Positions 9,236 to 54,879 of a stretch of DNA of 64,000 bases are shown piece by piece. The notes beneath the pieces were generated by a model. It was not told the DNA's origin, did no database searches, and saw nothing but the letters and a program-made list of their open reading frames with translations. A program made the translations under genes and the position numbers. How positions within the stretch are numbered: the stretch's first letter is position 1; each line of letters begins with the position of its first letter. The stretch covers positions 1-64,000 of the forward strand of contig CAIPKV010000013.1 of NCBI GenBank assembly GCA_903865745.1, written 5' to 3'. The DNA comes from an uncultured Verrucomicrobia subdivision 3 bacterium. Lineage in GTDB: Bacteria > Verrucomicrobiota > Verrucomicrobiia > Limisphaerales > UBA11358.

Positions 9236-10408
9236 ATGTCCCAACAGCTCGCCTACGTCATTGTCACGCCCTACTCCCTCTATAAATCCCGCACCGGCGG
9301 CATTTTGAGCCGGCTCATTACGCGCACGGGTCTCGACCTCGTCGGTCTGCGCATGTTCGCGCCGAGTCACGAACTGGCCCGCGAATATGCCGAGACCATC
9401 GTCTCCGCGCACGACACCCAGGACCGCAAGATTCAGGAATTGCTCAAGCAATACGTCCAGGAAAATCTCGCGCCCGACCCCAAAACCGGCCGTGGTCGTC
9501 GCGTCATGATGCTTCTGTTCAAGGGCGACGAAGCGGTCCGTAAGGTCCGCTCCGTGGTGGGCAACTTGAGTCCCGACCGTCGTGGGGGCGAAACCATTCG
9601 CGACACCTACAGCGACTTAATTCTGGATGACGCCGGCAATGTCCGTTACTTCGAACCCGCCGTGCTCGCCGCGCCCAACGTGGAAGAAGCCGAACGCAAG
9701 CTCAAGCTCTGGGCCCGCTACTCGGACAAGGACGGCGGCATCCTGGAAAACGTCATCAACTACACTATTAACGACCAGCCCGAGCGTACGCTCGTCCTCA
9801 TCAAGCCCGACAACTTCAAATTCGCCACCGGTCGTCCCGGCAACGTCATTGATTTCTTCTCGCGCACCGGTCTGTACATCGTCGGCGCCAAAGTGCTGCG
9901 GATGAGCACCACGCAGGCCATGGAATTTTACGGTCCCGTCCGCGAATTCCTCCGCGCCAAGCTGAAAGACGGCGTCAGCGCCAAAGCCAAAGACATTTTG
10001 GAGAAGGAATTTGGCTTCAAGATGTCCGCCGAAGACCAAAAGGCCCTCGGCGAAATCCTCGGGCCCCTGCAAGGCGACTCGCAGTTCGACAACATCGTGC
10101 GTTTCATGTCCGGGCATGCGCCGGGCGAGATACCGCAGGCCGATTGGGACAAGCCCGGCACCGAGAAGTGCATTGCGCTCGTCTATGAGGGCGTCGGCGC
10201 CGTCAATAAGATCCGCGACGTCCTGGGTCCGACGGACCCCTCCAAGGCGCCGCCGGGCTCCATTCGCCGTGAGTTTGGATCCACCATCATGGTCAATGCC
10301 GCGCACGCCAGCGACTCGGCCGAGAATGCCAAGCGCGAGTTCGGCATTGTCAAACCCGGTGAGAACAACTTCAAACAGGTCATCGAAGAAGTCCTCGGCA
10401 AAGTCTGA
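9236..10408 (+). CDS. ndk: Tandem nucleoside-diphosphate kinase (two NDK domains, first lacks the catalytic His)
   Basis: A 390-residue protein formed by two NDK-type halves. Normal bacterial Ndk is about 140 residues and exchanges the gamma phosphate between NTPs and NDPs through a phospho-His. Half one (1-180) begins LAYVIVTPYSLYKSRTGGIL. The region that should carry the active-site NxxHGSDS reads instead NVRYFEPAVLAAPN, so the His is missing. Half two (about 190-390) begins RTLVLIKPDNFKFA and keeps NAAHASDSAENAKREFG with the catalytic His, and it carries an extra helical insert around residues 245-275. Half one is therefore probably structural or regulatory. The gene is followed by a strong terminator. 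Confidence 0.88.
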   Translation: MSQQLAYVIVTPYSLYKSRTGGILSRLITRTGLDLVGLRMFAPSHELAREYAETIVSAHDTQDRKIQELLKQYVQENLAPDPKTGRGRRVMMLLFKGDEAVRKVRSVVGNLSPDRRGGETIRDTYSDLILDDAGNVRYFEPAVLAAPNVEEAERKLKLWARYSDKDGGILENVINYTINDQPERTLVLIKPDNFKFATGRPGNVIDFFSRTGLYIVGAKVLRMSTTQAMEFYGPVREFLRAKLKDGVSAKAKDILEKEFGFKMSAEDQKALGEILGPLQGDSQFDNIVRFMSGHAPGEIPQADWDKPGTEKCIALVYEGVGAVNKIRDVLGPTDPSKAPPGSIRREFGSTIMVNAAHASDSAENAKREFGIVKPGENNFKQVIEEVLGKV

Positions 10409-10429: not shown

Positions 10430-10455
10430 AGCCCGCTCGCGAGAGCGGGCTTTTT
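10430..10455 (+). terminator. Rho-independent terminator after ndk
   Basis: A perfect 9-bp stem, AGCCCGCTC at 10430-10438 with GAGCGGGCT at 10443-10451, loop GCGA, then a T tract. It begins 21 bases after the ndk stop and directly precedes repeat array 1. Confidence 0.93.
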
Positions 10456-10500: not shown

Positions 10501-10941
10501 GCGGGGCATACCCCGCGCCGTCCGGGGTCTACCCCGCGACGCTCGGAACCTGCCCCGCGTCATGCGGGGTGTACCCCGCGAAGCGTGGGGTATACCCCGC
10601 GCGACGCGGAACCTACCCCGCAAGGCGCGGGGTCTACCCCGCGTGGTCTGGTGTGTACCCCGCGAGGTGCGGGGTATGCCCCGCAAGGCGCGGAACCTAC
10701 CCCGCGTGACGCGGAACCTGTTCCGGACGGCTGGGAAGTACTTCCGCAGCTCGCGTAACCCCCCACGCGCGGCGCGGAACCTCTCACGCGAGCTGCGTAA
10801 CCCCTCACGCGTCGCGCGGAAGTACTTCCACGAGTCGCGGAACCCCTCACGCACGGCGCGGAACCCCTCACGCACGGCGCGGAACCCCTCACGCACGGCG
10901 CGGAACCCCTCACGCGTGGCGCGGAACCTCTCACGCGCGGC
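10501..10941. repeat. Repeat array 1: 21 units of exactly 21 bp, palindromic
   Basis: A gene-free stretch built of 21 consecutive units of exactly 21 bp. The main unit pairs GCGGGGT with ACCCCGC around a centre between unit positions 8 and 9. The right half drifts to a second form, GCGGAACCCCTCACGC followed by 3-5 variable bases, repeated almost unchanged from 10837 to 10941. Open frames run through it on both strands only because 21 is a multiple of 3 and the unit lacks stops. I do not call a gene. It lies between the convergent ndk and metG genes. The following 240 bases (10942-11181) hold GC-rich sequence and one copy of a CATCTG word repeat. Confidence 0.9.
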
Positions 10942-11144
10942 TTGGAAACGGTGGTCCGCCGGGGGTGAGTGGTGGGGAACTGTCTGTAAAGCAGCCGGTT
11001 GCAGTTAAAAGGGGGTTTTTAGGGCGCGCGGGCGGTTTTTACCTAAACCGGCTTGGACCCAGAGCCCGCCCTTTAGAAATATTAACAAGCCGGTTGGCTG
11101 GCTCTAGCGGTGGAATCCCGAAACAATGGATTGCTTGACCCGCC

Positions 11145-11180
11145 CATCTGCGTTTCATCTGTGCCCATCTGTGGCCAAAA
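11145..11180. repeat. Interspersed CATCTGTG word repeat, copy 1
   Basis: Three tandem words (CATCTGCGTTT, CATCTGTGCC, CATCTGTGGCC) ending in AAAACTC. Closely related stretches occur near 33408-33440 and 45066-45105, all in intergenic sequence. This copy runs up to the 3' end of metG. Confidence 0.7.
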
Positions 11181-11181
11181 C

Positions 11182-12732
11182 TCAGACGTCTTTGCGCGGG
11201 AAGAGCGGGGCCGGTTCGCCAATGGCGTGGCCGGCCACCAAACCGCCCCAGGTCGCCTCGGCCAGCTTGTCCGGCGTGCCGGTCAGACCGAGTTGCGCGT
11301 AGATCTTGGCCGAGGTGCCCGGCAGAAAAGGATTTAACAGGACCGCGAGCACCCGACAGGATTCCGCCAGATTGTAGAGCACTTCGTCGAGGCGCTGCGC
11401 CTGCGCGGGGTCTTTGGCGAGCTTGAACGGGGCGGTCTCATCCACAAATTTGTTCGCGCGATTGACCAAGCCCCAGATGCTTTGCAGCGCGGCTTGGAGC
11501 TGACCCTGTTTGAACAGGGCGCGGGTCTCATCGGCGGCCTTGGCGGCGTCGGCGGCGAGCTCATTTGATTTCGCGGGCACAACCCCATTGCGATAGCGTT
11601 TGAGCATGGAGAGGGAGCGGTTGACGAGATTGCCCAGGCCGTTGGCCAACTCGGCTTGGTAACGCGAACGGAAGCCGGCGTCGGTCCAATTACCGTCGGG
11701 GCCGATGTCGAGTTCGCGCAGGACGTAGAAACGGAAGGCGTCCAACCCCCACTCGTTGATGACGGCGATGGGGTCGATGACGTTGCCGGTGCTCTTGCTG
11801 ATCTTGGCGCCATCCTTTTGCCACCAGCCATGCACGAGAATCTGTTTGGGTAGAGCCAGACCCATGGCCTTCAGCATGATTGGCCAGTACACGGCATGAA
11901 ACTTCACAATGTCCTTGCCGATAACGTGGATGTCGGCAGGCCAGAGGGAAAGTTTTGAGTTTTGAGTGCTGAGGGTTGAGTGCGGCAGGACAGCTTCGTC
12001 ACCGTGGGCGGCGGCGATGCTGGTGTAATTCACGAGGGCGTCGAACCAGACGTAGGTGACGAACTCGGGGTCGAAGGGCAACGGGATGCCCCAGTTCAGG
12101 CGCGCGAGCGGACGCGAGATGCACAGGTCTTCGAGCGTGTTGTTCTTGAGGAAACCGAGGACTTCGTTCCGCCGATAGGAGGGGGCGATGAAGTCGGGGT
12201 TGGCCTCGATGTAATCAATCAGCCATTGCTGCTGCGCCCCGAGTTTGAAGTAGTAATTATCCTCTTTCAACTCCGCCACTTCGCCGTAGCTGGCATCGAA
12301 GGTGCCGTCGGGTAGCCGATCTTTCTCAGTGAGAAAGGTCTCTTCCTTGGCGGAATAGAAACCGGTGTAAGTGGCTTTGTAAAAATGGCCGGCGGCGTTG
12401 AGCTTGGCCAAAGTGGCTTGGACAAATTCCTTGTGGCGTGGCTGCGTGGTGCGGACGAAGTCGTCGTTGGTGAGTTCCAACTTCTGGGCAAAGGCCTGCC
12501 AGTCGGCGGCGAGGGCGTTGCAGTATTCCTGGGGGTTTTTCTGCTCGGCCTGCGCGGCTTGTTGAACCTTCTGACCGTGCTCGTCGAGGCCCGTGAGGAA
12601 GAAGACTTCCTGACCCAGACTGCGCCGGGCGCGCGCGATGACGTCGGCAATAATCTTCTCGTAGGCGTGGCCGAGATGCGGCTGGCCGTTGACGTAATCA
12701 ATCGCGGTGGTGATGTAAAACCGTTTGCTCAT
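11182..12732 (-). CDS. metG: Methionyl-tRNA synthetase
   Basis: A 516-residue class I aminoacyl-tRNA synthetase that charges tRNA-Met. The HIGH motif is HLGH (residues 19-22), KISKS (near 310) is the KMSKS loop, and LTGLDEHGQKV and HVIGKDIVKFHAVYWP are typical. It lacks a C-terminal EMAP/dimerisation domain, as in short forms. An odd stretch at about residues 250-264, STLSTQNSKLSL, falls in a loop and looks like a translated intergenic word repeat. It diverges from the LuxE-like gene. Confidence 0.96.
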   Translation of the reverse strand: MSKRFYITTAIDYVNGQPHLGHAYEKIIADVIARARRSLGQEVFFLTGLDEHGQKVQQAAQAEQKNPQEYCNALAADWQAFAQKLELTNDDFVRTTQPRHKEFVQATLAKLNAAGHFYKATYTGFYSAKEETFLTEKDRLPDGTFDASYGEVAELKEDNYYFKLGAQQQWLIDYIEANPDFIAPSYRRNEVLGFLKNNTLEDLCISRPLARLNWGIPLPFDPEFVTYVWFDALVNYTSIAAAHGDEAVLPHSTLSTQNSKLSLWPADIHVIGKDIVKFHAVYWPIMLKAMGLALPKQILVHGWWQKDGAKISKSTGNVIDPIAVINEWGLDAFRFYVLRELDIGPDGNWTDAGFRSRYQAELANGLGNLVNRSLSMLKRYRNGVVPAKSNELAADAAKAADETRALFKQGQLQAALQSIWGLVNRANKFVDETAPFKLAKDPAQAQRLDEVLYNLAESCRVLAVLLNPFLPGTSAKIYAQLGLTGTPDKLAEATWGGLVAGHAIGEPAPLFPRKDV

Positions 12733-22743: not shown

Positions 22744-23079
22744 GCATTTAGTTGGCAACTAAAGACGTTTAGCAGGCGAATGAACGCGTTTAGCTGCCAA
22801 ATTAAGACGTTCAGCACGACGCTAAACGCCTTTAGCAGGGCGCGGAAGGTCTATAGCACGCCAGTGAAAGCATATAGTTGCCAACTAAACCCGTTCAGCA
22901 CGCAAATGAAGTCGTTCAGCGTCGTGCTAAACCCATTTAGTACGCTGCTAAACGTAATTAGCACGACGCTGAAAGCGATTAGCTGGCTGCTAAAGAGGCT
23001 TAGCTGGCAATTGAACGTCTTCATTTGCCAACTAAACGCGTTTAGCAACCACTTTAAACGCCTAAATAGCCAGCCAAAC
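22744..23079. repeat. Repeat array 2: 16 units of exactly 21 bp, palindromic
   Basis: Sixteen consecutive 21-bp units. The typical unit pairs GTTTAGC (positions 3-9) with GCTAAAC (15-21) around a variable centre. Two units, at 22744 and 22870, replace C-G at positions 9/15 by T-A on both arms. Both strands can be read as a seven-residue repeat with the same Phe-Ser core because the unit is palindromic. I treat that as a by-product. The array lies between the aspartate aminotransferase stop and the tatD start. The remaining gene-free flanks (22573-22743 and 23080-23203) show only a short imperfect inverted repeat at 23083-23140. Confidence 0.9.
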
Positions 23080-23203
23080 GGCAAAAAGTGCCACTATTTG
23101 AAGAAAACCGCCGAAACAGACACACAAGTGGCGATTTTTGAGCAGACAAGTGGTGGGCCGACCCGCCGGTCAGCCTCACCTCTTGAAAAGTAACGGCGAA
23201 AAC

Positions 23204-31990: not shown

Positions 31991-32087
31991 CGGGCTGGAA
32001 CGCAGGCCGCCAGGAGTGAGGTAAGGGTGGGCTTCCTCTCAACTCACCACTTCGGTGAAACCGGCTCCAGCCACGACCATGGCCGGT

Positions 32088-32444
32088 GCATCCTTGGTCA
32101 TGTACGGCGTGTACTGGGTTCTGTACGGGCCGTACTAGGTCCAGTACGTCATGTACTTGGTTAAGTACGGCGCGTACAGGGTTAAGTACGGCTTGTACTA
32201 GGTCGAGTACGGCGCGTACAGGGTTAAGTACGGTGTGTACTGGGTTCTGTACGGCGCAAACAGGATTCTTTTTGGTTCGTACAGGGTCTTGTACGGTGCA
32301 TACAGGGTCCTGTGCGACGCGTACAGGGTTATGTTTGGTTCATACAGGGTCCTGTCTGGCGCGTACAGGGTTATGTTTGGTCCGTACAGGGTCCTGTCTG
32401 AGGCGTACAGGGTCCTGTTTGCACCATCCATGGTTAAGGATATG
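32088..32444. repeat. Repeat array 3: 17 units of exactly 21 bp, palindromic
   Basis: Seventeen consecutive 21-bp units. GTAC at positions 3-6 pairs with GTAC at 15-18 around GGGT. The final unit (from 32424) changes both arms together to ATCC and GGAT. Positions 7/14 alternate between T-A and A-T pairs in many units. Open frames exist on both strands and read as seven-residue repeats; I do not call a gene. It lies between the divergent receiver gene and a small membrane-protein gene, flanked by identical 27-bp repeats. Confidence 0.9.
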
Positions 32445-32501
32445 GCGAAATGTCCCCTTTCTGGGCAGGTTTGGGGATAAAGTTGCTGGGAAGGCCGATA
32501 T

Positions 32502-32528
32502 TACCGCGAAATACCCGAAATACGCGAA
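32502..32528. repeat. 27-bp TACCGCGAAATAC repeat, copy 2
   Basis: Identical over 27 bases to 31964-31990 and in the same orientation, on the other side of repeat array 3. The rest of 32529-32739 shows no gene I can support. Confidence 0.85.
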
Positions 32529-32739
32529 AAGGGAAGGGAACTCAATATTCTACTCGCCAAGGGGCGGGGGCGAGATTAGGGTTCAAGTCATGGATTCAAA
32601 TAGGGCTACCGAGGAACTTTCCAGCTTGCTGGAAACGGGCGTTGCCCGAACGCAGCCTTTGCCACAGCCATCAAGTCCAAACGCCATGGAATAGGCCGCA
32701 ATAATTCAATACAATACTTGTTAGGCATCATTCGTGTTT

Positions 32740-43784: not shown

Positions 43785-43952
43785 GTGTTCCGGACATCCT
43801 CCGCTGACCTCTGGACGTCCGTGAACAATTTGGTGACATCCGCCACTGACCGAGGGAGGTCCGGTATCGGTCAAGGGACGTCCGCTGGTGATTTTCGAAC
43901 CTCTGGTAACGACTGAGGGTTGTCCATCGGTCCCTTGAGGACCTCCGGAAGT
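43785..43952. repeat. Repeat array 4: about 8 degenerate units of 21 bp
   Basis: Eight units phased at exactly 21 bp, each with a GGACGTCC-like palindrome at positions 8-15 (GGACATCC, GGACGTCC, GGAGGTCC, GGTTGTCC, GGACCTCC), with weaker GACC/GGTC pairs outside. More degenerate than the other arrays. It follows the SafE-like stop. The next 70 bases show nothing clear, then a hairpin-cluster element starts. Confidence 0.8.
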
Positions 43953-44046
43953 CATTTCTGAGATGCTCAATTTAAAGTGGAAACGTAACTGAATCTGGAG
44001 TTTTGCATCAAAAAGGGCGTGCTAACGACGTTTTGGGTGAGCAGGA

Positions 44047-54366: not shown

Positions 54367-54492
54367 TAAGGAACGTCGGAACGCAGGAACGGCTAAACCG
54401 GGCCAAAAGGCATCAAACCCACCCGTTTCGTCCACATACAGGACAGTTTACCGCCAAATAACCCGTTCCCTAGGGGCAGTGTGCCCACACCC

Positions 54493-54690
54493 GAGGGGTC
54501 GGGTGCCTACTCCCGAGGGGTCTTGTGTCTACCCAAGAGGGGTCGGGGGTCAACCCAAGAGGGGTCTTGTGCCCACCCAAGAGGGGCCGAGGGTCGACTC
54601 CCGAGGGGTCTTCTGTCCGCCCAAGAGGGGTCGGAGGTTCATACCCGAGGGGTCTTGTACCAGCACCCGAGGGGTCGGGGGTGCACACCT
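54493..54690. repeat. Repeat array 5: 9 units of exactly 22 bp, alternating two types
   Basis: GAGGGG recurs at 54493, 54515, 54537, 54559, 54581, 54603, 54625, 54647 and 54669, always 22 bases apart. Odd-numbered units continue with a GGG-rich form (TCGGGGG), even-numbered ones with TCTTGTG or TCTTCTG, so the true unit is a 44-bp dimer. CCC before and GGG after form a short inverted pair. Unlike the 21-bp arrays this period is not a multiple of 3. It lies between the M42 peptidase and a lipoprotein gene; the other bases of the 510-base gap hold a short GGAACG word repeat near 54370-54395 and nothing else clear. Confidence 0.88.
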
Positions 54691-54879
54691 GGCAGGCAGG
54701 GTATGGGCACACGAGGGGCAGGCAACGAGGCTTGGACGGGCAATGGACTGGGTAAAGGCCGGACAATTGGTCAGGAACAATGAGGCGGGCGCGACTCGAT
54801 GCCTCGACCAAGTTTCACTATCGGCCTTACGCCCATCTTTCCCGCTCGACAGCCCGAGCCGGTAATCCTACGTTGACAC

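Follow-up and report, generated by a model that had tools for sequence, protein, structure and literature searches.

The window, by which we mean the whole 64,000-nucleotide stretch analysed, is contig C13 of a 3.63-Mb genome in 87 contigs. The element studied here lies between two convergent genes, ndk and metG. On the plus strand, ndk (9236–10408) is an ORF for a nucleoside diphosphate kinase (Pfam NDK, 3e-37); at 390 aa, the protein is much longer than usual and carries three NDK-domain stretches according to Pfam. Its 31 named relatives are all from Verrucomicrobia-type MAGs (Verrucomicrobia subdivision 3, Limisphaerales, Pedosphaera and similar names). Inspection of the sequence 3' of ndk showed an intrinsic-terminator-like hairpin at about 10430–10455 on the same strand (AGCCCGCTC...GAGCGGGCT-TTTT), and a similar terminator is present in many relatives. 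Array 1 follows at 10501–10941. Its right flank (10942–11125) holds an imperfect inverted repeat around CTGT...ACAG and is shared with the homologous elements of two other contigs, C18 and C82 (matches of 75% over 200 bp and 74% over 87 bp). A copy of a short interspersed repeat found at many sites across the genus (ATCTGCGTTTCATCTGTG..CCATCTGTGG; 11145–11181) adjoins the end of metG, the methionyl-tRNA synthetase gene on the minus strand (11182–12732; Pfam tRNA-synt_1g, 2.8e-92).

The gap between ndk and metG measures 774 bp here, as compared with 60–176 bp in relatives keeping that order, and no array was found in this gap in nine such relatives (four named and five further genomes). Array 1 is lineage-specific and absent from the nearest relatives, which stand at about 82% in DNA. 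No tRNA was found. A search for similar plasmid or phage DNA found none, and an origin from either was therefore rejected. The terminator-like hairpin of ndk itself lies upstream of array 1, which therefore does not serve as terminator of that gene; the assignment as an intrinsic terminator or mRNA 3' element was rejected on this ground and because related arrays also occupy divergent gaps.

Array 1 consists of 21 contiguous 21-bp units with zero indels, as a sequence-only reading of this DNA had stated. The sequence, TRF and the pairing tests describe a string of inverted half-sites in two blocks. The usual unit had been given as GCGGGGT paired with ACCCCGC. This is correct for block A (units 1–11, 10501–10731), which is mostly GCGGGGTNTACCCCGC with the hybrids GCGGAACCTACCCCGC, but not for block B (units 12–21, 10732–10941), which is mostly GCGGAACC[CT]CTCACGC and weakly palindromic. 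The changed units singled out earlier are all present, namely GGAAGTACTTCC at 10732 and 10816, GGAACCTGTTCC at 10711, and GCGT...ACGC at 10795, with one more unit of the last kind at 10753. The claim that pairing survives each time turned out to be wrong: 11 of the 21 units pair at only four of seven arm positions, among them the hybrids at 10606 and 10690, the unit at 10543 that nearly copies them, and six of the final nine, which have the usual form of block B. The two GGAAGTACTTCC units stand one 84-bp higher-order repeat apart (TRF), and units of this type also occur in the homologous arrays L013 and L014. They are thus inherited copies, not independent compensations.

The covariation check proposed in the sequence-only reading gave a signal in array 1 that depended on the null model. 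Against naive shuffling, 74.4% of the arm cells were paired versus 66.7 ± 2.0 expected, and the covariation score was 0.241 versus 0.140, with 0 of 500 shuffles as high and slid-partner controls lower. Another naive pairing test yielded p of about 1e-4. The signal was lost when arms were permuted within blocks, where 60 of 77 cells were paired in units 1–11 (56.7 expected, p 0.24) and 44 of 70 in units 12–21 (43.3 expected, p 0.62).

Array 1 is one member of a large class of intergenic repeat elements, and this class is lineage-specific. Within the window, array 2 (22747–23057; 21 bp, TTTAGC...GCTAAA) sits between ORFs that read as a TatD-type hydrolase and an aminotransferase. It belongs to family F2, which counts five more arrays, and the conserved right end of about 98 nt (23046–23143, plus strand) is common to all six; a model of it, R1, gave six hits in this genome and no hit in 47 further genomes from the genus. 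Array 3 (32092–32427; family F3, 21 bp) has conserved flanks at about 32053–32099 on the left and about 32424–32625 on the right. Array 4 (54462–54703; family F4) has a 22-bp period and the core GAGGGGTC, and a weak candidate with a 21/42 period lies at 43794–43961, its palindromic enrichment being weak. Copies within each family (F1–F4) have unit or end sequences in common. F1 comprises array 1 and copies on C18, C82 and C61, F3 comprises array 3 and copies on C3, C4, C16 and C29, and F4 comprises array 4 and copies on C10, C24 and C33. Two 22-bp arrays (L174 17681–18120 and L178 9481–9920) are recent duplicates, about 95–98% identical. An ORF resembling a tyrosine recombinase/integrase (L013 6026–7051) was seen about 1.6 kb from an F1 array.

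For the genome-wide census, we sampled this genome in two rounds, of 375 kb and 327 kb, part of it in stretches picked for family hits. These approximately 700 kb contain 40 arrays, 35 at period 21 and 5 at period 22, and the counts are lower bounds, because the assembly is fragmented and several contigs end within arrays. Contigs C16, C18, C22 and C24 start or stop in this way, and positions 1–126 of L173 and L174, both inside an array at contig ends (C22, C24), are exactly the same: arrays break the assembly. The stretches not picked for hits (C1–C10, C20, C30 and C40; about 194 kb) hold 7 arrays, a density that would give roughly 130 genome-wide, a number on the order of a hundred. In about 1.2 Mb of relatives' DNA, comparable arrays numbered only about five (L040, L071, L076, L078 and L121). 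Predicted genes are avoided by 38 of the 40, and tandem, divergent and convergent gaps are occupied alike. Other periods are scarce among long arrays, being limited to simple repeats of 7, 12 and 14 bp, periods of 15–18, 27 and 33, and two of 41 bp. The latter pair (L169 13931–14320 and L175 10677–10983) are related to each other, have arms TTGGTC/GACCAA and a period near four helical turns, and form an exception to the 21/22 rule.

Most arrays have a palindromic consensus when compared with column-permuted nulls, and their sequences differ between families. Otherwise unrelated sequences share one design, in which mirror-image half-sites recur every 21 (or 22) bases, equal to two helix turns. 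The spacing of dyad axes at 10.5 bp was rejected as independent evidence, since it is a mathematical consequence of any palindromic 21-bp period. Literature on such arrays in Verrucomicrobia, or on arrays with two-turn spacing, was searched, and nothing matching was found. The earlier statement that the palindrome and not the sequence is kept holds, more strongly across the genome than inside array 1; what has to be revised is the level, which is that of whole arrays and not of single units.

This difference in level was seen most directly in family F2. Around their common right end, the F2 arrays use differing arms (TTTAGC/GCTAAA, TTTTGC/GCAAAA, TTTACC/GGTAAA and TTTGCC/GGCAAA). Across 90 units, 393 arm cells were paired, as compared with 324 ± 10 after shuffling across arrays and 379 ± 8 when the right arms were shuffled within arrays (p 0.05). 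The unit-level excess was also small over 43 arrays with 84 true dyad axes (mean z 0.47 ± 0.15); this weak remainder is what a hairpin model wants, and it counts against the explanation that we favor below. The arms change together between whole arrays, without comparable co-change inside them. This implies that an array behaves as though it had a single half-site, present in both orientations and replaced array-wide, and it points to array-wide homogenisation of that half-site and not to unit-by-unit hairpin repair. Covariation of stem arms is usually read as strong proof of a functional RNA. The arrays are a clean warning case in this respect, as they pass a naive covariation test and their arms co-vary strongly between homologous elements, with almost no co-variation unit by unit.

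The alignment of homologous copies contained 691 substitutions, along with two gaps of 21 bp, one of 42 bp and a single gap of 1 bp; these counts are approximate, because the homologous pairs overlap (w3, C4, C16) and the substitutions are not all independent. Arrays gain and lose whole units (21 or 42 bp). Indels are rare in the flanks as well as in the arrays. The substitution rate was 0.226 in the arms and 0.206 near the axes (p 0.37), dropping to 0.09 at the arm centre. Since the arm rate is not below the axis rate except at this centre, there is no clear support for a strongly sequence-selective protein. Substitutions were even across codon positions. Column conservation in the arrays peaked at 10.5 bp (0.258 vs 0.100 ± 0.023, 0 of 2000 permutations) and fell below chance at 3 bp (p 0.002), a pattern in keeping with a constraint at the level of duplex DNA, but not with one at the level of codons.

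Between aligned homologous arrays, six inversions of the core were detected (for instance GAGGGGTC to GACCCCTC), at 6 of 239 dyad axes and 0 of 4695 other centres, although the palindromic arms make an inversion easier to score at an axis than elsewhere. Counts of unit inversions were left out, as palindromic units inflate them. In published work, homogenised arms together with an inverted spacer identify inverted repeats that have undergone template switching (PMC8604942; PMC8794818), and such switching can mimic compensatory change (PMC8794818).

With the above results in hand, we give an even chance to the explanation that the interspersed elements are helix-phased duplex-DNA arrays of inverted half-sites, palindromic through array-wide homogenisation, which provide a platform for a putative two-fold protein. 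One short half-site would alternate forwards and backwards, one per helical turn, so that the period equals two turns (21 bp, or 22 in a few arrays). The complementarity of the arms may persist through joint rewriting of whole arrays, by amplification of variant units and by fold-back template switching, which would copy one arm onto the other and flip the core. The two-turn phase would persist if the array serves as a multivalent platform on duplex DNA, and the putative protein, for example a mobilisation or nucleoid protein, would make its contacts along a single face of the helix, as a two-fold dimer. The two-fold symmetric DNA site, which the sequence-only reading had offered as one of two options, is retained here, as a whole array of sites of this kind. 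Template switching and whole-unit gains and losses explain the array-wide match of the arms, but not the common period of 21/22 bp. The helix phase could also be inherited from one ancestral array instead of being maintained.

The main rival to the platform reading, which we hold to be rather unlikely but the strongest of its kind, is that the arrays are function-free selfish or neutral minisatellites. Slippage and unequal exchange would multiply the units, fold-back template switching would make the palindromes, and nothing would be bound. This agrees with the equal rate at which arms and spacers diverge between copies, with gains and losses of whole tandem units (the 21- and 42-bp gaps), with higher-order repeats of 42, 63 and 84 bp, with the core inversions at axes and with the lineage-specific distribution. 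Neutral processes alone leave three observations unexplained, namely the 21 or 22 bp found in all unrelated families, the single one-base indel per 691 substitutions, and the 10.5-bp conservation period inside arrays.

A string of RNA hairpins, acting as an sRNA sponge, an attenuator or a stabiliser of transcript ends, appears improbable. Most arrays fold far above their shuffles; any palindromic array must fold, so this is by itself no argument for an RNA function, and in most arrays both strands fold strongly. The significance of the naive covariation speaks for hairpins, but covariation at the unit level is absent in array 1 once blocks are respected and is slight in F2. Between homologous copies, 199 pairs were broken by single changes as compared with 31 compensated pairs. 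G.U-type cells exceed A.C cells on one strand in F1 and F3, whereas the strand is inconsistent in F2 (68 GT vs 50 AC). The bias is strong in array 1 (3 GT, 19 AC) and in L016 (20 and 1), and it was rejected as proof of RNA. The strong skews of w1, L014b and L016 belong to one family. L016 has the hybrid half-site pair of array 1 reversed, and the two arrays can be aligned in either orientation; the skew is therefore probably one inherited asymmetry. At the gathering score, Rfam gave no match in the window, and array 1 reached sub-threshold hits only, the best being microRNA hairpin models. The arrays show no orientation preference relative to genes and also lie in divergent gaps, and the exact 21/22 spacing is not needed by RNA. 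Taken with the lack of a consistent G.U strand, these findings disfavor the hairpin string put forward from the sequence.

Mobilisation as REP/BIME-type elements by a RAYT (Y1) transposase is very improbable. Regular spacing, alternating orientation, intergenic position and high copy number are all found here, and the genome has two Y1_Tnp genes (L186, C16:16134–16472; L187, C57:61177–61518), the one on C16 lying about 1 kb from an array. A different, REP-like palindrome (CCGTCCCGATGGGAC type), and not a 21-bp array, flanks the L186 gene; neither a common unit sequence nor a GTAG/CGTC tag was found among the arrays, whose unit consensus varies by family. Protein-coding heptapeptide repeats, which the sequence-only reading had already found hard to reconcile with the units, can practically be dismissed: 21 bp is seven codons and divisible by 3, there is avoidance of indels and many frames are open, but 22-bp arrays exist, the consensus is palindromic, conservation and substitutions lack a 3-bp signal, the open frames lie on both strands and differ among arrays, and no array ORF has a Pfam match. 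A CRISPR array was rejected, since spacers of roughly 20–70 bp are expected there, whereas about 5 bp separate the palindromes here and the arms vary. An iteron origin was rejected as well, no replication initiator gene being adjacent to array 1 (neighbors ndk and metG) or array 2 (neighbors the hydrolase and aminotransferase ORFs).

The platform reading can be extended, tentatively and with more doubt than belief, to a new bacterial repeat class. It would comprise dozens to hundreds of helix-phased arrays serving as duplex-DNA platforms for putative dimeric proteins, each family with its own two-fold half-site. Specificity would change from array to array, with all units taking on the new half-site at once. 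Should a protein maintain the two-turn phasing, this would point to a chromosome-wide system of DNA binding, so far undescribed, in Verrucomicrobia of the Limisphaerales type.

Among known systems, the iterons of replication origins are tandem sites of about 20–22 bp, spaced two helical turns apart and bound on duplex DNA. They are few, direct and not inverted, and stand beside a rep gene, whereas the present arrays number dozens, are inverted and lie by housekeeping genes. Prokaryotic satellites and minisatellites (PMC6749651) are likewise tandem and intergenic, with scattered families and higher-order repeats. Their unit lengths are diverse, and two-fold symmetry has not been reported for them, whereas the present arrays have nearly all one helical length and dyad symmetry. 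Inverted repeats shaped by template switching (PMC8604942, PMC8794818) resemble the arrays in arm homogenisation, core inversion and multi-base 'compensatory' changes arising without selection, but are described as single inverted repeats and not as whole, phased arrays. The LIMP palindromic repeats of Lobosphaera mitochondria (PMC4524435) are also lineage-specific, intergenic repetitive palindromes of short motifs; each is a single hairpin made of AACCA repeats, whose loop is invariant, in contrast to the two-turn phasing observed here. BIMEs consist of palindromes that alternate in orientation at regular spacing (PMC2817692), and together with REPs, REPINs and their RAYT (PMC2817692, PMC3733652, PMC3116915) they share with the arrays an intergenic, high-copy, species-specific and dynamic character. 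REPs keep one tagged consensus genome-wide, whereas each array family here has its own half-site and a period fixed at 21/22 bp through as many as 21 units, and the Y1 gene inspected (L186) is not bordered by an array.
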